Of a DNA stretch of 64,000 bases, positions 1,805 through 30,830 are shown one piece after another. The stretch covers positions 194,201 to 258,200 of the forward strand of contig PGZM01000002.1 of the NCBI GenBank assembly GCA_002841395.1, in the 5' to 3' direction. Each line of letters begins with the position of its first letter. The stretch's first letter is position 1. Origin of the DNA: Firmicutes bacterium HGW-Firmicutes-9. Lineage in GTDB: Bacteria > Bacillota > Clostridia > Christensenellales > CAG-138. Made by a program: the position numbers and the translations under genes. The notes beneath the pieces were generated by a model. The model saw only the letters and a list, made by a program, of their open reading frames with translations. It made no database searches and had not been told where the DNA came from.

Positions 1805-3880
1805 ATGTTTACAGTAATTACCAAGCGTGACGGCCATCAGGAGTCGTTTGACCGTCTCAAAATAAAGAATGCCATCTGGAAGGCCGCACAGGCCGTCAAC
1901 GGCACGGACGAGGAGCGCTCTGAGAGACTCGCGGACGAGGTCGTTCGCCTTGCGGAGGAGCGCTACGGCGACAGAACGCCGGACGTCGAAGGCATCCAGG
2001 ACCTTGTGGAAAAGGTTCTGATCGAGGCAGGCCACGCGAAGACCGCGAAGGCCTATATTCTCTATCGCGAAAAGCGCCGCGGCACGCGCGAGATCAACGC
2101 GCTCATTGGAGCTACCATCGACATGTTTGGCGACTATCTCAACGACCGCGACTGGGGCGTAAAAGAGAACGCCAACATGCAGCGCAGCGTCAACGGACTC
2201 AATAACTATGTCCGCGAAGCGTTCACGAAGAAATATTGGCTGTACGAAGTCTATCCCATCGATGTGTGCAAGGTGCACGAGAGCGGGGATGCCCATATCC
2301 ACGACCTCGGCTTCTTCGGCCCGTATTGCGCGGGTTGGGATCTTCGCCAGCTGCTTTCCGACGGCTTCGGCGGCGTAGACGGAAAAGTTGAAAGCAAGCC
2401 CGCAAAGCATCTGCGTTCGTTTTTGGGGCAGATCGTCAACTCCACCTTCACGACGCAGGGCGAAACCGCCGGCGCACAGGCATGGAGCTCGTTTGACACC
2501 TATTGCGCGCCGTTCATCAAGTATGACAACATGACGTTCGACCAGGTTTGCCAGTGCATTCAGGAGTTTGTGTTCAACATCAACGTGCCCACGCGCGTCG
2601 GTTTCCAGTGCCCGTTTTCGAACCTGACGTTTGACATCAAAGTTCCTTCCACACTCAAAGACGAGCCGGTGCTCATCGGCGGCAAGATGATGGAGGAGAC
2701 CTACGGCGATTTCCAGGAGCAGATGGACATTTTCAACCGCGCGTTCTGCAAGGTCATGCTCGATGGCGACGCGAAGGGCCGCGTGTTCACGTTCCCGATT
2801 CCGACGATCAACATCACCAAGGATTTCGACTGGTCGAGCCCCGTGGTGGATGATTTTATGCGCATCACCTGCAAATATGGCATTCCGTATTTCGCGAACT
2901 ACGTTAATTCAGACCTTTCCCCGGAGGATGCTGTCTCCATGTGCTGCCGCCTCAGGCTGGACAAGCGCGAGCTGCGTAAGCGCGGCGGCGGACTCTTTGG
3001 CAGCAATCCCATGACCGGCAGCATTGGCGTCTACAGCATCAACCTGCCGCGCATCGGCTACCTCGCAAAATCAAAGGAAGACTTCTTTGAGCGCCTCCGT
3101 CACATTGCGACGCTGGGCAAGGTCAGCCTCGAGATCAAGCGCAAGATCATTGAAAAACAGTCCGAACAGGGCTTGTATCCGTATTCGACCAACTACCTGC
3201 GCAGTGTCAAAGAACACACGGGCGAGTTTTGGACGAACCACTTTAACACCATCGGCCTCGTCGGCATGAACGAATGCTGCCTCAACTTCATCGGCAAAGA
3301 CGTCGGAAGTCCTGAAGGTCTTGAATTCTCGCTGGAGATCATGAACTATCTGCGTGCGCTGATGATTGAGTTCCAGGAGGAGACGGGGCATAGTTACAAT
3401 CTGGAAGCAACACCCGCCGAAGGCACGAGCTATCGCCTTGCGAAGATGGATCACGAAAAGTTCCCCGGGATCATCCAGAGCGGCGTAGACGAACCGATGT
3501 ACTCCAACTCCTCACAGCTGCCCGTTGGCTATACGGAGGATATCTTCGAGTGCTGCGACCTGCAGGACGAGCTCCAATCGCTCTATACAGGCGGCACGGT
3601 GCAGCATCTCTACATCGGCGAGCGCATTGAGGACATCGAAACCGCAAAGTCGCTCATTCAGCGCGTGTTTGCCAAGTATAAGATGCCGTATATCTCCATC
3701 ACGCCGACGTTCTCGATCTGCAAAGAGCACGGCTACATCGCGGGCGAGCATTTCAATTGCCCGACATGCGGCCAAAAGGCGGAGGTTTGGTCCCGCGTGG
3801 TCGGCTATCTGCGGCCGGTGCAAAACTACAACCCCGGCAAGAAGGAAGAGTACATGATGCGCAAGAAGTTTGTCATCTGA
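1805..3880 (+). CDS. nrdD: Anaerobic ribonucleoside-triphosphate reductase (class III)
   Basis: This oxygen-sensitive glycyl-radical enzyme reduces ribonucleoside triphosphates to deoxyribonucleotides. It is 691 residues from the chosen start (E. coli NrdD is 712). Residues 1-90 form an ATP-cone allosteric domain starting FTVITKRDG. The catalytic domain follows. Near the C-terminus are cysteines of the zinc site (SIC and NCPTCG) and the glycyl-radical motif RVVGYLRP. A GTG at 1787 is in frame, but GGGAGGG at 1789-1795 would lie inside the coding part, so the ATG at 1805, nine bases after it, is preferred. Tandem NrdR boxes precede it, and the activase nrdG follows. Confidence 0.96.
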   Translation: MFTVITKRDGHQESFDRLKIKNAIWKAAQAVNGTDEERSERLADEVVRLAEERYGDRTPDVEGIQDLVEKVLIEAGHAKTAKAYILYREKRRGTREINALIGATIDMFGDYLNDRDWGVKENANMQRSVNGLNNYVREAFTKKYWLYEVYPIDVCKVHESGDAHIHDLGFFGPYCAGWDLRQLLSDGFGGVDGKVESKPAKHLRSFLGQIVNSTFTTQGETAGAQAWSSFDTYCAPFIKYDNMTFDQVCQCIQEFVFNINVPTRVGFQCPFSNLTFDIKVPSTLKDEPVLIGGKMMEETYGDFQEQMDIFNRAFCKVMLDGDAKGRVFTFPIPTINITKDFDWSSPVVDDFMRITCKYGIPYFANYVNSDLSPEDAVSMCCRLRLDKRELRKRGGGLFGSNPMTGSIGVYSINLPRIGYLAKSKEDFFERLRHIATLGKVSLEIKRKIIEKQSEQGLYPYSTNYLRSVKEHTGEFWTNHFNTIGLVGMNECCLNFIGKDVGSPEGLEFSLEIMNYLRALMIEFQEETGHSYNLEATPAEGTSYRLAKMDHEKFPGIIQSGVDEPMYSNSSQLPVGYTEDIFECCDLQDELQSLYTGGTVQHLYIGERIEDIETAKSLIQRVFAKYKMPYISITPTFSICKEHGYIAGEHFNCPTCGQKAEVWSRVVGYLRPVQNYNPGKKEEYMMRKKFVI

Positions 3881-3915
3881 CGATCGGAAAGCATCGCGTC
3901 TTGATTCACAATTTG

Positions 3916-3952
3916 GTTGGAGATGTGCCGCGCGCATGTCTCCAACTTTTTT
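3916..3952 (+). terminator. Hairpin with T-run between nrdD and nrdG
   Basis: GTTGGAGA at 3916-3923 pairs with TCTCCAAC at 3939-3946, followed by six T. It may set the nrdD:nrdG transcript ratio by partial termination, because nrdG has no clear promoter of its own (only a TAAAAT at 3967-3972). Confidence 0.8.
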
Positions 3953-4011
3953 GACCGACTTTATGGTAAAATAGAAAACAGTTGAAATACTGCAGGAGGA
4001 TTACGCCGTTC

Positions 4012-4695
4012 ATGCTGATCGCCGGATTCCAGAAAACATCATTTGTCGATTATCCCGGGCAGCCGTGCGCGGTCGTGTTCACGCCGTATTGCAACATGAA
4101 CTGCGTCTATTGCCACAATGCGCATATCATCAAGCGCGATGCACCGCTTATGCCCGAAGAACCGGTGCTGGAATACTTGGAGAAGCGCGCAGGGCTTCTA
4201 AGCGCGGTCGTCATCTCCGGCGGGGAGCCGACGCTCCAGCAGAATCTGGAGGCGTTCATCCTGCGTGTAAAGACGCTTGGCTATAAAGTCAAGCTGGACA
4301 CGAATGGCACGAAACCGCAGGTGCTGTTGACGTTACTGGGTAAAAACCTGTTGGACTACATCGCGATGGACGTCAAAGCCCCTACCGATAAGTATGATGA
4401 CATTGCCTGTGCAAGCGTCGATATGGACAGCATCCGTCGCAGCATCACGGTCATTCGAAACAGCGGCATTCCACACGAGTTTCGTATGACGTATGCGCCG
4501 CAACTTTCGCAGGAAGACGCGCTGGAAGCGGCCAGAATGGTCAACGGCTGTGATCGTTTTTATCTTCAGCAGTATCGACCACGTAACGAGCAGGATCCGC
4601 TGGCGCATGCGCCGACGGACGTGCTGAAAGCAGGAGAGGCGATTGCGCGCGAGATCGGAAACTGTACGGTGCGTGGGTTAGGACCTGAGCAATAA
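4012..4695 (+). CDS. nrdG: Anaerobic RNR activating radical SAM protein
   Basis: This 227-residue radical SAM activase installs the glycyl radical on NrdD using S-adenosylmethionine and a [4Fe-4S] cluster. The cluster motif is CNMNCVYC near residue 27, followed by the HNAHII segment. The N-terminus LIAGFQKTSFVDYPGQ is typical of the NrdG2 subfamily, which resembles pyruvate formate-lyase activases. A TTG at 3982 is in frame, but AGGAGGA at 3994-4000 points to the ATG at 4012. The gene lies 131 bases after nrdD, and pairing with it supports the assignment over a pyruvate formate-lyase activase. Confidence 0.92.
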   Translation: MLIAGFQKTSFVDYPGQPCAVVFTPYCNMNCVYCHNAHIIKRDAPLMPEEPVLEYLEKRAGLLSAVVISGGEPTLQQNLEAFILRVKTLGYKVKLDTNGTKPQVLLTLLGKNLLDYIAMDVKAPTDKYDDIACASVDMDSIRRSITVIRNSGIPHEFRMTYAPQLSQEDALEAARMVNGCDRFYLQQYRPRNEQDPLAHAPTDVLKAGEAIAREIGNCTVRGLGPEQ

Positions 4696-4697
4696 AT

Positions 4698-4733
4698 AAT
4701 AACGACCTGCAAGAGATTCGCAGGTCGTTATTT
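4698..4733 (+). terminator. Terminator after nrdG
   Basis: A 13-base stem AATAACGACCTGC / GCAGGTCGTTATT begins two bases after the nrdG stop, and a short T-rich tail follows. No gene is seen from here to 4918. Confidence 0.85.
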
Positions 4734-4882
4734 AGCGTTTGATCGATTCAACTTCGCGTTCGAAACAATGAAACTGGTTGCTAAAGCAAGAGTTCATGCC
4801 ATGAAACAGTCATCATTCTCAATAATGCGTGAAAATCATGGAATAAAGCCGTTTTTACACAGTATCGTCACATTTGAAATGT

Positions 4883-4911
4883 TTGAACTATGGAATCAAA
4901 TCGATTATAAT
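4883..4911 (+). promoter_or_regulatory. Promoter of the L,D-transpeptidase gene
   Basis: TTGAAC (4883-4888), 17-base spacer, perfect TATAAT (4906-4911). The expected start of transcription (about 4918) falls on the ATG at 4919, which suggests a leaderless mRNA. No ribosome-binding sequence is seen before this ATG. Confidence 0.7.
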
Positions 4912-4918
4912 AGCTAGC

Positions 4919-6178
4919 ATGGAACGTAAATTTGATTGGAAAAGAATCCTTGTTATAGCCTTGGGTCTCGCGCTCGCGTTTGCGCTTGCCGCCTGCTCGC
5001 TGACGGCGGAAGCACCGGTCGTGGAAGAACCCACACCGTCTCCGGTGCCGATCCCGACCGCGGAACCCGTCATCACGATTGGTGATGCGGTGACGATGCC
5101 GCTTGTCGATGCCAGTCAAGTGCCCGCCGCGTATACGCGCGTAGAGACGGAAGACCCGAATCTCTCGCTGTATGTGTTTACCGACGCAGACGGCGTCCTG
5201 CAGTACCGCGTCTTTGGCGGATACACAGAATTTACGGACGGCGTTCCGGGCGAAATTTACACCGGTTTCTATCCTTCGGATGAAACAGGCGCGATCTTGG
5301 CTGATGCGAAGTCGTTCGTCGATCCTGTAACGGAAGCGTTCGGCGTTGCCGCGGTGACACCGCTTCCGGATACGCTTCGTCTGCGCGCGAAGTATACGCT
5401 GCAGGAAAACGGCGTGATCACCGGCGATGACGGCGGTACGTACGTCTACGGGTCGTTCAACGGCGGCGAGGGCGCGTTTTATCTTGCGGACGGCAGCGGG
5501 AAGATGATTGCCGGTTCGTTGCCAACGAGTGAGAATATCGCGGTGCCTTCCTATACACCGGATTCCGTTCCGGCAGCGGACGGAGACCGCATGATCGTCA
5601 CTTACATCGGTTCTCAAAGCGTCGTCGTCTACAAAGCGGTCGATGGCGAGTGGACCGAAGAACGCGTGATGATCTGCTCTACGGGGCGCAGCAAGGATTT
5701 GACCCCGCGCGGAACCTTCCATCTTGTTCGTCAGTATCCCTATAAGAAGATGGGTGAGATTCGCGGCGAGAATGTCTATTCGCAGTACGCGAGCCGCATC
5801 GTTGGCAGCTATCTGTTCCATTCCGTACCCATTGGCGGCGAAAAACGTCAGGTTCAGGAGTACGGCAAGAAGCAGATGTTTGTGAAGTATTATGAATCGC
5901 TCGGAACGATCGCATCCGGCGGATGCGTCAGGCTCCGCTGTGTGGATGCCTACTGGCTCTATATGAACTGCGTGGTCGGAACCGAAATCATCATTACGGA
6001 CGACACAGGCCCCACGCCGCCGACACCGCCTGCGCTGATCTACGAAGAACCGTATATGGACGCAAGGCACGAGTATGGTTGGGATCCCAGTGATCCGGAC
6101 CCGGAGAACCCGTATCATGCGATCTACCCGCCGGAGTATGTTCTGGACGGCCCCGTGATCGACAAATCGAAAGACTGA
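4919..6178 (+). CDS. Lipoprotein with L,D-transpeptidase (YkuD) domain
   Basis: This 419-residue exported lipoprotein is likely to form or remodel 3-3 peptidoglycan cross-links, or to trim the wall. The N-terminus is basic (ERKFDWKR), followed by a hydrophobic stretch and a lipobox LAAC, so Cys would be lipidated after cleavage. A proline-rich linker follows. The YkuD domain occupies roughly residues 225-370, with FHSVP and the catalytic motif SGGCVRL holding the nucleophilic Cys. The C-terminal ~50 residues are rich in Pro, Asp and Tyr. An upstream in-frame start at 4874 lies before the promoter -10 box, so 4919 is chosen. The gene stands alone between terminators. Confidence 0.88.
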   Translation: MERKFDWKRILVIALGLALAFALAACSLTAEAPVVEEPTPSPVPIPTAEPVITIGDAVTMPLVDASQVPAAYTRVETEDPNLSLYVFTDADGVLQYRVFGGYTEFTDGVPGEIYTGFYPSDETGAILADAKSFVDPVTEAFGVAAVTPLPDTLRLRAKYTLQENGVITGDDGGTYVYGSFNGGEGAFYLADGSGKMIAGSLPTSENIAVPSYTPDSVPAADGDRMIVTYIGSQSVVVYKAVDGEWTEERVMICSTGRSKDLTPRGTFHLVRQYPYKKMGEIRGENVYSQYASRIVGSYLFHSVPIGGEKRQVQEYGKKQMFVKYYESLGTIASGGCVRLRCVDAYWLYMNCVVGTEIIITDDTGPTPPTPPALIYEEPYMDARHEYGWDPSDPDPENPYHAIYPPEYVLDGPVIDKSKD

Positions 6179-6188
6179 TATAATAATC

Positions 6189-6216
6189 AAAGCTTCCCTT
6201 CGGGGAAGCTTTTTTG
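6189..6216 (+). terminator. Terminator of the L,D-transpeptidase gene
   Basis: AAGCTTCCC / GGGAAGCTT with a TTCG tetraloop, then a T-run. Confidence 0.92.
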
Positions 6217-6241
6217 TGTTATCAGCAATATCAGAGAAAAC

Positions 6242-6276
6242 AAAAAACACAGGGTCAAAATCGAACCTGTGTTTTT
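6242..6276 (-). terminator. Terminator after tRNA-Glu(CTC)
   Basis: Read on the minus strand, AAAAACACAGG pairs with CCTGTGTTTTT, followed by more T. It lies three bases beyond the tRNA 3' end. Confidence 0.85.
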
Positions 6277-6278
6277 GA

Positions 6279-6354
6279 TGGCACCCAGTAGGGGAGTCGA
6301 ACCCCTGTTCCCGCCGTGAGAGGGCGGTGTCCTAGGCCACTAGACGAACTGAGC
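6279..6354 (-). tRNA. tRNA-Glu (anticodon CTC)
   Basis: A 76-base cloverleaf with acceptor GCTCAGT / ACTGGGT (G-T pairs tolerated), anticodon loop CTCTCAC giving CTC, T-loop TTCGACT and encoded CCA. It stands alone with its own promoter and terminator. A TTC isoacceptor is in the cluster at 19335-19409. Confidence 0.95.
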
Positions 6355-6369
6355 ACAGCTGCAAGGGAT

Positions 6370-6398
6370 ATGATACCGAAATATCAGGCTTGTGTCAA
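6370..6398 (-). promoter_or_regulatory. Promoter of tRNA-Glu(CTC)
   Basis: On the minus strand: TTGACA (6398-6393), 17-base spacer, TATCAT (6375-6370), about 15 bases before the tRNA 5' end. Confidence 0.8.
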
Positions 6399-6486
6399 TA
6401 GAATATCACAAGAAAAATCAGGTTCTTTTTTATAGAGTTTTTTCACTGATCCTGCATGCTTAATTTGCATCAAACCTGTTCTGTTT

Positions 6487-6517
6487 ATAAAAAAGGCGGC
6501 TGTTGTTGCAGCCGCCC
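6487..6517 (-). terminator. Terminator of the PlsC-like gene
   Basis: Minus-strand stem GGCGGCTG / CAGCCGCC with a six-base loop, followed by a T-run; it begins seven bases after the stop codon. The 130 bases between this and the tRNA promoter hold nothing else recognisable. Confidence 0.9.
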
Positions 6518-6523
6518 GATGCG

Positions 6524-7789
6524 TTAATCTTGCTTCTTGTTTCGCATGTGGTGTTGGTACAGTTCTTCCGTTGCAAGTGCGATCTTCACGATTGAAAAAT
6601 CGCACCCCTGTGGATAACAATACCACGAATCCTCCAGCGTGTTGAGATCGACGCAATCACCGTACTTGCCGAGATAGTTCAACTCAATATGGCTGGAGTA
6701 AAGCGACGACACAGGCTTGACCATCTCGAAGTCTCCGTAAGCGCCCGTTCCGTGGACGGTGAAGCCGTCCATGTTGTGCGTGAGCGTACCGTCGCCGATG
6801 TGTACGTATCCGGTCGCGTTCGGTAGCGACATCACGCGAACAGGCGCGCTGAACGAATACGTGCCCGTCTCGACTTCGGTTCGAACATTGGCGCGTTCCC
6901 ACTCGTACCAGTCGGGAATATGCGAAAACTCTGTCTCTCCGTTTCTCGCATGCAGCACGCCGAGCTCGTCCATCTCCCAACGTTTGCCGCAGGACTTGCA
7001 GAACAGTTCAGCCCCGACAGAATCCATCTGGTTTTCGGCCTTGCAATGCGGACACTGGTATAAGACCTTGTGCAGCCCTTCCGCGCGCTTGGGATACGAA
7101 ATGCGGATGCCGCGTTCGCGCTGCCAGGCAAAATCGTCATACTGAAATGCTTCGTTGATGACGCGGTTAACTTCTTCGGACGAAGCTTTCGCAAGCGCTT
7201 CTGTTGTAAAGAGACAGGTCAACTCTGATTCTACGGGCTTAACCCCGCGATCGCCGAGATTCCAGACGGGCGAATTCACATGATGTCCGTGCATAATCAG
7301 AGAGACGACGGGTACTTTCAGGAGCTTGCAGAGCTTGCCGAGGGATTCCGGCAGAACGGCATTGGTGCCACAGAGCGCATAGCGCGCCTCGGGATACAGA
7401 ACGGCGATATCGCCGTTTCTCACAACACGTCCGAGCTGACGCACAAGAATCGCGTCGTTGGTAAACTTGCGCTTACAGATGCAGCCGACGGTGCGTAGGA
7501 GTCCTTCGCGGCTGGCAAAACCTTTCTTGGTTGGCGAAGTAAATCCGTCGATGGCAACGACATAGTTGGCACGGTGCGGAAAGATTGCGGCGGTCGTCAC
7601 CTTGAAGTCGAGAAACGCGTTGTGATTGCAGAGCAGGATGTACGGCGGCTTGACGCCTTCCATATTGATCTTCCGAATCTTTGCGCGGTGTTTCCAGACA
7701 TCCGGGTAACTGATTGCCCAGGCAAGGGGACGCAATTTCTGTTTCTTGGGTGTGGCCAGCATGTCAAAGCGTTCAAACGAATCCTGCAC
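6524..7789 (-). CDS. PlsC-family acyltransferase with zinc ribbon
   Basis: This is probably a membrane-associated acyltransferase acting on a glycerophosphate-like acceptor. It is 421 residues. The acyltransferase hallmark HX4D is NHNAFLD near residue 53, and YPEARY near residue 135 is the substrate-binding PEG-type motif. Around residues 240-265 two CxxC pairs (CPHC and CKSC) form a zinc ribbon that ordinary PlsC proteins lack. The last ~150 residues are unassigned. The start is GTG with AAGGAG upstream, behind promoter TTGACA-18-TATAAT. The exact substrate cannot be told from sequence. Confidence 0.75.
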   Translation of the reverse strand: MQDSFERFDMLATPKKQKLRPLAWAISYPDVWKHRAKIRKINMEGVKPPYILLCNHNAFLDFKVTTAAIFPHRANYVVAIDGFTSPTKKGFASREGLLRTVGCICKRKFTNDAILVRQLGRVVRNGDIAVLYPEARYALCGTNAVLPESLGKLCKLLKVPVVSLIMHGHHVNSPVWNLGDRGVKPVESELTCLFTTEALAKASSEEVNRVINEAFQYDDFAWQRERGIRISYPKRAEGLHKVLYQCPHCKAENQMDSVGAELFCKSCGKRWEMDELGVLHARNGETEFSHIPDWYEWERANVRTEVETGTYSFSAPVRVMSLPNATGYVHIGDGTLTHNMDGFTVHGTGAYGDFEMVKPVSSLYSSHIELNYLGKYGDCVDLNTLEDSWYCYPQGCDFSIVKIALATEELYQHHMRNKKQD

Positions 7790-7802
7790 GGGTACTCCTT
7801 CT

Positions 7803-7816
7803 CGCGGATTTCCGCG
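7803..7816 (-). promoter_or_regulatory. Small hairpin beside the ribosome site of the PlsC-like gene
   Basis: CGCGGA / TCCGCG separated by two bases, in the 5' leader immediately before the AAGGAG of the GTG start. It could modulate ribosome access; this is inference only. Confidence 0.35.
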
Positions 7817-7842
7817 GGAAAATTTGGGTTGCGACTGTTTTG

Positions 7843-7872
7843 ATTATAGGTGGATACGCTTTCGGCTGTCAA
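7843..7872 (-). promoter_or_regulatory. Promoter of the PlsC-like gene
   Basis: Minus strand: TTGACA (7872-7867), 18-base spacer, TATAAT (7848-7843). The leader is about 45 bases. Confidence 0.8.
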
Positions 7873-7875
7873 TCA

Positions 7876-7912
7876 AAAGGTAACGCCACCGTCTTTTGTC
7901 TGACAGTGGCGT
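7876..7912 (-). terminator. Terminator of the isochorismatase operon
   Basis: Minus strand: ACGCCAC...GTGGCGT with an inner GTC/GAC pairing, then a broken T-run, 16 bases after the stop codon. Confidence 0.7.
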
Positions 7913-7927
7913 GAGTGTTGCGATAGA

Positions 7928-8458
7928 TTATTTTTTGAGAATTTGTATCGCCTCTTCGAGCGGAACGACACGTGCGAGCGGCTCGTGCCAGATCATGCGC
8001 TCGTAAAAATAAACGAGCTTATCGCCTGAGAGAAAGGGGTTTGCGTATGTCGTCGTTGCGCCGGAAGGAACCACGACCTCATAGCCGTGCTCAAACGCGG
8101 TCTTGACGCTGGTGTCGATACAATACTCCGTCTGCATGCCGCAGATGACAAGATTCGTGATGCCTTTGTCGCTCAGATATTCGTTCAACCCGGTTTTCAG
8201 AAACGCGCTGTTGAAACGCTTTTCGAAAATGCGCTCTTCCGAACGCGGTGCAAGCGATTTGTCCAACTGCCAGCCGGGTTCGCCGTAGGCCAACACATCG
8301 CCTTCTCCGCCGTCATGACGAACATAGATGACCTCCGTGCCGGCTTCGTGCGCGGCATCGATGAGAAGCTTGAGATTAACCAGAAATGCATCTTTGTTGG
8401 CGGGTTGATCGTCGATCAACGCCTGCTGCACATCGATGACGAGGAGCGCTGTTTTCAT
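7928..8458 (-). CDS. Isochorismatase-family cysteine hydrolase
   Basis: This 176-residue protein has the isochorismatase fold, whose members hydrolyse nicotinamide, ureido or related amide and ether bonds. The N-terminal LLVIDVQQAL provides the catalytic Asp, and the nucleophilic Cys is in CGMQTEYCIDTSV near residue 115. The true substrate is unknown. Its ATG overlaps the TGA of the upstream hydrolase (ATGA at 8458-8455), so translation is coupled. It is the last gene of the CDGSH / hydrolase / isochorismatase operon. Confidence 0.85.
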   Translation of the reverse strand: MKTALLVIDVQQALIDDQPANKDAFLVNLKLLIDAAHEAGTEVIYVRHDGGEGDVLAYGEPGWQLDKSLAPRSEERIFEKRFNSAFLKTGLNEYLSDKGITNLVICGMQTEYCIDTSVKTAFEHGYEVVVPSGATTTYANPFLSGDKLVYFYERMIWHEPLARVVPLEEAIQILKK

Positions 8459-9303
8459 GAAATACCTCCAAATGAAACTTGATCGGATGATAACGCGGCG
8501 GTCAGGAATGCATCGATCGCAGCGTTGACCGCATCAGGATTGTCGACGTTAGAGTTGTGGGATGCATTCTCGATGATCTGCATCGGATAGCCTGTCGCCT
8601 CGTGCCAAGCCTTTGAGTAAGCAAGCACTTTCCCGGCGCGATCCTTCTCACCGACCAGGATCAAAACGGGGCACGTGATGTTCAAATCTCGGTTCTCCAG
8701 CGCAAATCCGTTTAACCCGGCTTTCGTCAGCGCACTAAACTCATCCTTGCCGTAAAATGAGATTGCTTTGCGCATATTGTCCTGCCCGCGCTCGGTCAGC
8801 GCGACGCTCTTGATGATGGTATTGACATAGTATCCATATGGCATCCATTGACTGATTGCGCCGGCTTTGGAAAGCCAGAAGAGATCGGACTTTGAATAGT
8901 AACGCAGACCATATGGACAGGTATCGATGGCAACAAACGCAAGCGCCATCTCAGGATAACGCAACAGAAACGATTGAACGAGATAGCCGCCCATCGATTG
9001 CCCTGCGAACACCGCGCGATCGATCTGCTCCTGCTCCAGTATGCCGCGCATATCCTCCGCGCAATTCTGATAGGAAAAGTCGTGATAAGGGCGGGAGAGG
9101 GCATGCGCGGGAGCATCCCATGCGATGACGGTATATCGATCTGCAAAATATGGAACTTGCTGATCAAACATGGTGTGATCCGCGGTCAACCCGTGGAGAA
9201 AGAAGATGCACGGCGCATCAGGCTTTTCACTGCGCGTGATCCAATACGCAACATTGCCGCGCGGAGAGGCATATTCCTTCTGAACAGTAGTTGAAAGCGT
9301 CAT
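8455..9303 (-). CDS. Alpha/beta hydrolase
   Basis: This 282-residue soluble alpha/beta-hydrolase-fold enzyme is probably an esterase or lactonase-like protein. The oxyanion region FFLHGLTADHTMF is near residue 35, the nucleophile elbow GQSMGGY near residue 97, and the catalytic His falls in NASHNSNVDNPD near the C-terminus. A GTG at 9306 is in frame, but AGGTGG sits only three bases from it; the ATG at 9303 has better spacing. The gene begins 14 bases after the CDGSH gene and overlaps the isochorismatase gene by four bases. Confidence 0.85.
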   Translation of the reverse strand: MTLSTTVQKEYASPRGNVAYWITRSEKPDAPCIFFLHGLTADHTMFDQQVPYFADRYTVIAWDAPAHALSRPYHDFSYQNCAEDMRGILEQEQIDRAVFAGQSMGGYLVQSFLLRYPEMALAFVAIDTCPYGLRYYSKSDLFWLSKAGAISQWMPYGYYVNTIIKSVALTERGQDNMRKAISFYGKDEFSALTKAGLNGFALENRDLNITCPVLILVGEKDRAGKVLAYSKAWHEATGYPMQIIENASHNSNVDNPDAVNAAIDAFLTAALSSDQVSFGGIS

Positions 9304-28821: not shown

Positions 28822-28875
28822 TTGACTTTAAAATGATTTTACCATATACTGCAAAATATTGCAAACATATGTTCG
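28822..28875. promoter_or_regulatory. Divergent lexA / ferredoxin-like promoters with shared LexA box
   Basis: Plus strand: TTGACT (28822-28827), 17-base spacer, TATACT (28845-28850). Minus strand: TTGCAA (28864-28859), 17-base spacer, TAAAAT (28841-28836). CAAACATATGTTCG at 28862-28875 matches the Gram-positive LexA box CGAACATATGTTCG at 13 of 14. It overlaps the lexA -35 and lies just after the predicted plus-strand start, so both genes should be SOS-controlled. Confidence 0.88.
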
Positions 28876-28894
28876 GGAGACTAATGTATTTTTT

Positions 28895-29227
28895 ATGAAA
28901 CGTTGTATTTTACAGGCTGATAAGGTTTGCAACGATTGTGGCGCGTGTGATGACCGCTGCGAGCTCGATCCAGCAAAGATTTGCGACAATTGTTTCCGTT
29001 GCCTCGATGAGGGGATAGAGGCGTTTGCGCAGATTCCGATCTCCGGCGTTTTCTTGGATGATGACTTTGTGCCCGAGCGCGAAGGCGAAGAGCAAGAGGA
29101 GGTCGATCTGGATGACGGGTTTATACCCGATCTGTACGATGATTGGAAGGACGAGGAGATTGTCCATGCAAAAACGCTGCCAATGACGTTTGGCGTGCGC
29201 GTGCGTCGCAGCCACAATCGCCGTTAA
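28895..29227 (+). CDS. Small ferredoxin-like Cys-rich protein, SOS-linked
   Basis: This 110-residue protein has eight cysteines in its first 36 residues: C4, C12-x2-C15-x2-C18-x3-C22, and C30-x2-C33-x2-C36. The middle set is a classic [4Fe-4S] ferredoxin motif; the rest could hold a second cluster. The remainder is acidic (ERE, EEQEEVDLDD) with a basic tail RVRRSHNRR. Function is unknown. It is divergent from lexA with a LexA box immediately after its predicted transcription start, the position of yneA in Bacillus, to which it shows no similarity. The chosen ATG lacks a strong ribosome site. Confidence 0.75.
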   Translation: MKRCILQADKVCNDCGACDDRCELDPAKICDNCFRCLDEGIEAFAQIPISGVFLDDDFVPEREGEEQEEVDLDDGFIPDLYDDWKDEEIVHAKTLPMTFGVRVRRSHNRR

Positions 29228-30270
29228 TCCTCGCGTAGTTTGATCTTTTTCGCGGCGATGCGCTTGTGCTCTTCGCTGGTGGCTGCATAGTGCTTTCGCG
29301 TGGTGTTGACGTCCTTGTGTCCCAACACATCCGCAACGAGATAGATATCTTCGGTCTCGTGGTAGAGCATGGTGCCGTATGTACTGCGCAGTTTGTGCGG
29401 CGTAATCTTTTTGAGCGGCGTCGCGAGCTTTGCATATTTTTTAACCAGCAACTCAACGGAGCGCACGGTGATTCTACGCATCTGCATCGAGAGAAACAAC
29501 GCGCGTTCATGCCCTGGCAGGGGCGATTGCTTCTCGCGAACCGCGTAGTAGTCCGAAAGCGCTGCATGCACCTCATCGCCGAAATTCAGGATATCTTCGC
29601 TGCCGCCTTTTCGGGTGACGACAAATGCGTTGTTGTCAAAATCGATATCGGTAAGGTCGATGCCGACGAGTTCGCTGATGCGGATACCCGTGCCGAGAAA
29701 GAGGGTCAGAATCGCAACATCGCGGAGCTTTGTTGATATGTGGTATGCTTTTTGCCGATCCGTCAACCCGTCTCCATTTTCTACCAGGTCGAGCAGATCC
29801 GCAACCTCGTTTGGCTCGAGCCGGATAATTGCCTTTTCGTTGAGCTTCGGGATATCGACAAGCGCCGCTACATTCGTCGGCAGGTACTCCTGTTTGTGCA
29901 AAAACTTAAAAAACGAACGAAGGGACGAGAGTTTTCTCGCCTTCGCGCGTTCCTGATTGACCCATTCGCGGTCACCTTTCTGATAAAACGAGACCTCTGC
30001 TAAAAACAGCTCTATATGGTATGCCTGCACTTTTTCCAAATCGCTTGCGGTGAGGGAGGGGATGTCCTTTCCTGCGAACAAATCCTCCTGCTGTGCTGCA
30101 AACTGAAAGAAACCGCGCAGGTCCACCGCGTAAGCATAGCGTGTCAGAACAGAAGTCTGGCTGTCGATCGCGCGAAAAAACGTTCCGCAAAGCACCGGAA
30201 GTTCGGTGAGCAGAGCGCGGATTTTGAGCGTATAGTCTTTGTTCAGAGCGGTATGATAGGAGTTTGGCAT
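29224..30270 (-). CDS. Tyrosine recombinase, XerS/XerC-like
   Basis: This 348-residue integrase has an N-terminal SAM-like DNA-binding domain (about 15-145) and a C-terminal catalytic domain. Catalytic residues are visible: Arg in GTGIRISEL, Lys in VTRKGG, HxxR in HKLRSTYG, His in LGHKDVNTTRKHY and the nucleophilic Tyr in the same segment. Length and layout resemble single-component Xer recombinases (XerS type), which resolve chromosome dimers. No phage genes lie nearby. Its promoter overlaps a perfect 14-6-14 inverted repeat, a candidate target site. Its 3' end overlaps the convergent Cys-rich gene by four bases. Confidence 0.88.
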   Translation of the reverse strand: MPNSYHTALNKDYTLKIRALLTELPVLCGTFFRAIDSQTSVLTRYAYAVDLRGFFQFAAQQEDLFAGKDIPSLTASDLEKVQAYHIELFLAEVSFYQKGDREWVNQERAKARKLSSLRSFFKFLHKQEYLPTNVAALVDIPKLNEKAIIRLEPNEVADLLDLVENGDGLTDRQKAYHISTKLRDVAILTLFLGTGIRISELVGIDLTDIDFDNNAFVVTRKGGSEDILNFGDEVHAALSDYYAVREKQSPLPGHERALFLSMQMRRITVRSVELLVKKYAKLATPLKKITPHKLRSTYGTMLYHETEDIYLVADVLGHKDVNTTRKHYAATSEEHKRIAAKKIKLRED

Positions 30271-30317
30271 GAAATTCGCCTCAAAATATCAAAATTACGC
30301 TACCATTATTCTAACAC

Positions 30318-30351
30318 AACTATTCGTTAAAGACAAGTTTAACGAATAGTT
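30318..30351. repeat. Perfect 14-6-14 inverted repeat, dif-like candidate
   Basis: AACTATTCGTTAAA and its exact reverse complement TTTAACGAATAGTT flank a six-base centre GACAAG. Xer sites have two 11-base arms and a six-base centre, and the inner 11-6-11 of this repeat has that geometry. It is 47 bases upstream of the recombinase start. The predicted recombinase promoter (minus strand TTGTCT-17-TAGAAT) has its -35 over the centre, so the site could also serve as an autoregulatory operator. Confidence 0.65.
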
Positions 30352-30355
30352 AATG

Positions 30356-30380
30356 AAAAAAACGCATAGAATCATGCGTT
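30356..30380 (-). terminator. Terminator of rnhA
   Basis: Minus strand: AAACGCAT / ATGCGTTT, loop of six, then a T-run; the stem includes the last codons and stop of rnhA. Confidence 0.85.
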
Positions 30381-30830
30381 TTGCACGGCTGCAAGCGCTT
30401 GCTTGATGGCAAGCCGCGCCAGCTCGTCGCAGCGGTTGTTAAACGGATTGTCCGAATGACCTTTGACTTTGATGAACTCATATGAATGCGTGTGTAACGC
30501 ATCCAGCAGTTCACGCCAAAGATCCTGATTTTCTACGTCGCGTTTTGAGGACGTTTTCCAGCCATTGGCCTTCCAGTTGTTCAGCCAATTCTGTTGAAAT
30601 GCGTTACAGACGTACGCACTGTCCGTATGAATCTTGATGACGCACGAAACTTTCAACGCACGCACAGCCTCAATCACGGCGCGCAGTTCCATGCGATTAT
30701 TCGTCGTTACGGGCTCAAACCCGGACAACTCTTTCTTTTGATCCTGATACATCAAGATCGCGCCCCAGCCGCCCGGACCCGGGTTGCCGGAGCACGCGCC
30801 GTCCGTATAGATCGTTACTTGTTTCTTCAT
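30372..30830 (-). CDS. rnhA: Ribonuclease HI
   Basis: This 152-residue endonuclease cuts the RNA strand of RNA-DNA hybrids. The DEDD active-site residues are in YTDGACSGNPGPGGWG (Asp10), NRMELRAVIEA (Glu), HTDSAYV (Asp) and NNRCDELAR (Asp), and VKGHSDN carries the conserved His. The basic handle (NNWKANGWKTSSKRDVEN) is present as in E. coli RNase HI. It lies 30 bases after proC on the same strand. Confidence 0.97.
   Translation of the reverse strand: MKKQVTIYTDGACSGNPGPGGWGAILMYQDQKKELSGFEPVTTNNRMELRAVIEAVRALKVSCVIKIHTDSAYVCNAFQQNWLNNWKANGWKTSSKRDVENQDLWRELLDALHTHSYEFIKVKGHSDNPFNNRCDELARLAIKQALAAVQNA

Follow-up and report, generated by a model that had tools for sequence, protein, structure and literature searches.

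What is the perfect inverted repeat that lies just upstream of a lone tyrosine recombinase gene in a Christensenellales chromosome? The repeat and the gene fall within a stretch of 64,000 nucleotides, referred to here as the window. The first-pass annotation proposed that the repeat is the recombination site of the neighbouring enzyme, or else an operator. The comparisons presented here make it very probable that the palindrome is the chromosomal dif (dimer-resolution) site of a single-recombinase Xer system; neither binding nor recombination has been assayed. The recombination-site reading is upheld by a repeat that is present in single copy, conserved beside orthologous genes and located at a skew switch, by the absence of a detected second Xer, and by phages found at the equivalent position in relatives.

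The recombinase gene and the adjacent palindrome

The xer gene (29224–30270, minus strand) encodes a single tyrosine recombinase of 348 aa that is related to XerS. The protein contains a Phage_integrase domain and a SAM-like N-terminal domain. Residues R197, K221, H292, R295 and H318, whose catalytic roles were assigned by motif, and the tyrosine Y328 are invariant in 23 Xer orthologues; by the same motif, the catalytic residues of the window protein are intact. The best NCBIfam match is XerS (the NF003462 equivalog), at 191.1 bits, which is below the curated cut-off of 267 bits; against the 23 orthologues the XerS model gives a best E-value of 1.2e-58. The XerD model matches this gene alone in the genome, with 150 bits against a cut-off of 329.6, and the XerC model scores 163 bits against 335. 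In a small sampled tree the 23 orthologues form one clade (99/98) with XerS adjacent (88/75). Separation of the clostridial clade from XerS is well supported in this tree; a sister relationship between the two is provisional because the tree has long branches. The label of XerS-like given in the first-pass annotation is correct in that the protein is XerS-related, but the protein falls below the XerS cut-off (191 versus 267 bits) and belongs to a separate clade. By function the locus is filed as a single-recombinase Xer/dif system, outside the curated XerS family.

The window gene is the sole tyrosine recombinase detected in the genome, both by protein search and by search with the XerD model, and assemblies of the same genus likewise show one. 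No canonical XerC/XerD pair was found, since no two recombinases exceeded the cut-offs in a search of this assembly. A second recombinase could be missing from the genome data because the assembly is 92.2% complete. Matches to xer were obtained in 76 of the 81 genomes searched, mostly full-length, and the closest named relative, from Christensenella sp. MAG UBA7703, is 93% identical. The description of a lone gene without phage context also stands: each genome search gave one match, xer is flanked by housekeeping genes (lexA, rnhA, proC and valS) and has conserved neighbours in many genomes, and no phage genes occur among its neighbours. The genome encodes an FtsK with a gamma domain (PF09397, 97.7 bits, in a 917-aa frame). 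A 122-aa open reading frame with a cysteine-rich stretch adjoins xer (28859–29227, plus strand) and has no Pfam or NCBIfam match. One other genome, G343 (L332, L502), encodes an XerS-like orthologue plus an XerD above the curated cut-off, and two Xer systems possibly coexist there, judging by these matches.

The dif-like site (30318–30351, no strand assigned) is a perfect 14-6-14 inverted repeat, AACTATTCGTTAAA-GACAAG-TTTAACGAATAGTT. The left arm, AACTATTCGTTAAA (30318–30331), and the right arm, TTTAACGAATAGTT (30338–30351), are 100% complementary and enclose an asymmetric 6-bp centre (30332–30337; GACAAG, or CTTGTC on the opposite strand) that is the predicted crossover region. Assignment of a 6-bp centre is based on promoter pairing within the family, on 77 host sites and on spacing controls in viral contigs, all given below. 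The repeat is upstream of xer and its start is 47 bp from the ATG, as initially described. Allowing up to 3 mismatches, the window contains a single copy, compared to matches in 0 of 100 shuffles, and a search for other genomic copies, which had been proposed as a check, found one copy in the 3.17-Mb genome. A second short inverted repeat at the rnhA end (30359–30382) is terminator-like on the minus strand.

Conservation and chromosomal position of the site

Comparison of the regions upstream of orthologous genes, also proposed with the first-pass annotation, revealed that the repeat is conserved. A similar palindrome is upstream of xer in 26 of 29 and in 30 of 40 loci, two sets that were found by orthology alone without using the site; in about 10–28% of orthologue loci the stretch read contained no site. 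When 80 named relatives were scanned, including many Lachnospiraceae, 58 had the site at a score of at least 26/28, and none (0/80) reached this score with the reversed sequence. The scan is not fully independent: its consensus was built on the first set, with which it shares some genomes. A weak match in G069 was not relied on. Conserved arms with strict 6-bp spacing next to xer orthologues are a feature of both Christensenellales and Lachnospiraceae.

The arms vary symmetrically, which is the basis for predicting that each is an Xer half-site. Among the 77 host sites the two arms agree at position 11 in 97% (50% expected), at position 5 in 97% (73% expected) and at position 2 in 94% (62% expected). 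The arm variants AACTCTTCG, ATCTTTTCGC and AACATTGCG are each present on both sides, indicating that the arms change jointly. Arms are typically perfectly symmetric in the window's family, and arm ends are often unequal in Lachnospiraceae, with CGTTAAA on one and CGCAAAA on the other. Lachnospiraceae loci such as L433, L437 and L448 have one arm of each kind, with kilobases between site and xer.

The proposed GC-skew check placed the repeat at a skew switch. Within 400 kb of its own contig, the maximum of the cumulative GC skew is 571 bp from the site. Genome G080, a single contig, switches 0.3 kb away from the site; in G078, also a single contig, skew is +0.125 at 2.21–2.23 Mb and −0.19 from 2.27 Mb, with the site at 2,270,629. 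A plus-to-minus change of skew at the site was found in 20 of 25 and in 38 of 48 relatives, two sets that partly overlap, and no switch was seen at the site in G031, G070, G022, G033 and G018. The site is not always beside the gene. In G179 it remains at the skew switch with xer 13 kb off, in G191 it is at the switch with xer on another contig, and in G027 and G519 site and gene are likewise apart. Criteria for a single-recombinase Xer/dif system include a sole Xer in the genome, one near-palindromic site per chromosome at the GC-skew switch, intact catalytic residues and an FtsK with a gamma domain, and the window's genome satisfies all four.

Insertions, a predicted promoter and the probable function of the palindrome

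A scan of viral contigs for Xer returned contigs that have an orthologous xer near one end. The site is upstream of xer in L338, L340, L341, L343, L344 and L349. L338, L340, L341 and L344 gave matches to filamentous-phage proteins of the Zot-like, rolling-circle replication or coat-like kind; the family search left the elements of L343 and L349 untyped. L341 contains tandem filamentous prophages (3068–9107) with a unit of 6,039 bp and ends that share CCAACTATGCGCGAAACACTTCTT; they are inserted at the site, with a PP-loop (TtcA-like) gene and xer downstream of it. In L340 and L344, an arm and the centre are common to both element ends. A microvirus occupies the site in L239 (identical to L339), where the order is MGL, lexA, xer, site, microvirus and second half-site. 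This element has the 17-bp direct repeat TTTTGCGAATAGATTAT at each end and a capsid protein matching PF02305 at 390 bits; microvirus genes are also beside xer in L345 and L347. L480 represents an unoccupied chromosomal site with a centre identical to that of L343 and L344. The relatives with occupied sites are outside the window genus, with 48–53% identity in protein comparison, and contigs from viral collections and assemblies may contain assembly errors. As assembled, the insertions have the arrangement typical of phages that exploit Xer at dif, and they are the strongest sequence evidence that palindromes of this class are recombined. They also offer an explanation for the direct repeats that flank filamentous prophages in clostridial single-Xer hosts. 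Such repeats have been noted for Enterocloster inoviruses, without mention of Xer (PMC10061712).

The palindrome is likely also the promoter of xer, given a conserved pair of hexamers. On the minus strand, a predicted −35 hexamer TTGTCT (30331–30336) begins in the palindrome centre and is followed after 17 bp by a predicted −10 hexamer TAGAAT (30308–30313). In the window's family, 36 of 38 sites have a TTG centre in the direction of the gene, and TANNNT occurs at exactly 17 bp in 26 of these 36 loci, and in none at 14–16 or 18 bp. Other families of the order have the pair at 17 bp in 0 of 19 loci, with the site still present. The first-pass prediction that the −35 falls on the centre is thus borne out, with TTGTCT mostly inside it, and in the window's family the predicted crossover centre very probably doubles as the xer −35 box. 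With the centre serving as −35 box, binding of Xer to dif would be predicted to silence xer itself. The arrangement suggests such self-repression but does not demonstrate it; of the operator reading, the conserved promoter pair over the centre is supported and repression by bound Xer remains an inference.

The promoter pair, with its 17-bp spacer in 26 of 36 family loci, and the location of the palindrome 47 bp from the start codon could mean that the repeat is solely an operator or promoter element involved in autoregulation of xer, without recombination. This is very unlikely given that G179 and G191 keep the site at the skew switch far from the gene, that families without the promoter pair (0/19) retain the site, and that phages are inserted within it. 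Symmetric variation in an intergenic repeat could alternatively reflect base-pair compensation in an RNA hairpin, either a terminator or an attenuator of the rnhA-xer region. However, no run of T follows the palindrome, the primary sequence of the arms is conserved beyond what pairing alone would require, the 6-bp spacing is kept at sites distant from the gene and at those of phages, and the terminator-like hairpin of rnhA is the separate repeat at 30359–30382; the hairpin can be virtually discounted. The operator and the hairpin are both rejected as sole explanations.

The proximity of a tyrosine recombinase to an att-like palindrome, together with proviruses in some relatives, raises the question of whether the palindrome instead serves a mobile element as its attachment site, with the window recombinase as the integrase carried by that element. 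An integrase is scarcely credible for a gene that is located among housekeeping genes with neighbours conserved in many genomes, that is present in nearly all relatives, and that has its site at the terminus. A housekeeping dif site is the interpretation favoured here.

At such a dif site, two Xer monomers would bind the two identical arms, and FtsK would bring together, at the division septum, the two sites of a chromosome dimer. Strand exchange across the asymmetric 6-bp centre would then convert the dimer to monomers. Because the arms are identical, the orientation of the site would depend solely on the centre, like that of loxP. Sequence data establish the site, its conservation, its position at the terminus, its occasional separation from the gene, the phage insertions in relatives and the promoter pair; binding by Xer, the cleavage positions, recombination, control by FtsK and autorepression are inferred from them.

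Related systems and sites in tailed phages

In the open-licence literature searched, single-recombinase Xer systems are named only in streptococci and lactococci, epsilonproteobacteria, Legionellales and archaea, and no paper was found that treats XerS, dif and Lachnospiraceae together. To these the window system adds a separate single-Xer clade, whose site is defined, from two groups of abundant gut and rumen bacteria, the Christensenellales and Lachnospiraceae. With it come a site on which dimer resolution can readily be tested, the prediction of a promoter within dif, and a large number of tailed phages that possibly make use of the host Xer.

The window system resembles XerS/difSL in having a single Xer of similar size (348 versus 356 aa for XerS) with its gene adjoining the site at the terminus, and XerS gives the best NCBIfam match and is placed as its sister clade by the sampled tree. 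The sites differ: the centre of difSL is 11 bp long and its arms are imperfect and unequal (PMC5357621), whereas the window site has a 6-bp centre and matching arms. No window-type site was found within about 1.4 kb in four XerS-type loci sampled. XerH/difH of Helicobacter and Campylobacter is similar in that a single recombinase is linked to a site with a 6-bp centre (PMC2731167), but is Proteobacterial; XerH is reported to be phylogenetically unrelated to XerS, and single-recombinase dif sites other than that of XerL to be only partly symmetric (PMC9765430). Perfectly palindromic arms, which the first-pass annotation considered unlike dif, are already known from XerL/dif of Legionellales, where a single recombinase acts with uninterrupted perfect inverted-repeat arms and the single site, near the skew switch, is exploited by an integrative element (PMC9765430). 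The window system shares each of these features, and differs in that the Legionella gene is more than 400 kb from dif. Insertion at the site, tandem arrays and end repeats are also characteristic of IMEX phages (CTXphi-type filamentous phages and dif-integrating microviruses), except that the clostridial insertions involve a single Xer. Like loxP of phage P1, the window site has perfect arms and an asymmetric centre as the sole source of orientation.

The motif TATKCGYWAAA-6-TTTWRCGMATA matched at least 120 viral contigs, mostly of tailed phages. The same scan gave 0 matches with reversed arms, 0 with a 5-bp centre and 8 with a 7-bp centre. At least one of the 120 matches listed, L239, is host sequence with a microvirus. 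A TerS- or TerL-like cluster is within 3 kb of the site in 91 of the 120 matches listed, and the usual position in tailed-phage contigs is between the two genes, shortly after terS and before terL. Cluster members were matched as small or large terminase in PHROGs; some proteins of the TerS-like cluster had no match. The viral matches listed have 63 distinct centres, compared to 26 on chromosomes. Integration of tailed phages at chromosomal dif is disfavoured because a centre found among the 77 chromosomal sites occurs in only 5 of the 120 viral sites listed, and because no relatives of the TerS/TerL clusters were found in the host contexts searched.

Near most of the phage sites no recombinase encoded by the phage was seen, and the host enzyme would have to act on them. 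A tentative proposal, for which the case is close to balanced, is that many clostridial tailed phages carry a host-Xer site between terS and terL and use it as P1 uses Cre-lox, to circularise the incoming genome or resolve multimers, with a private centre that prevents recombination with the chromosome. A role in terminase recognition (pac or cos) is also possible. In P1, lox lies near pac, and the location of the tailed-phage sites by terminase genes is reminiscent of this arrangement; the absence of a nearby phage-borne recombinase at most sites is a difference from Cre. The viral contigs listed as containing the palindrome (L032–L041 and L133–L242) have exactly 6 bp between the arms and variable centres.
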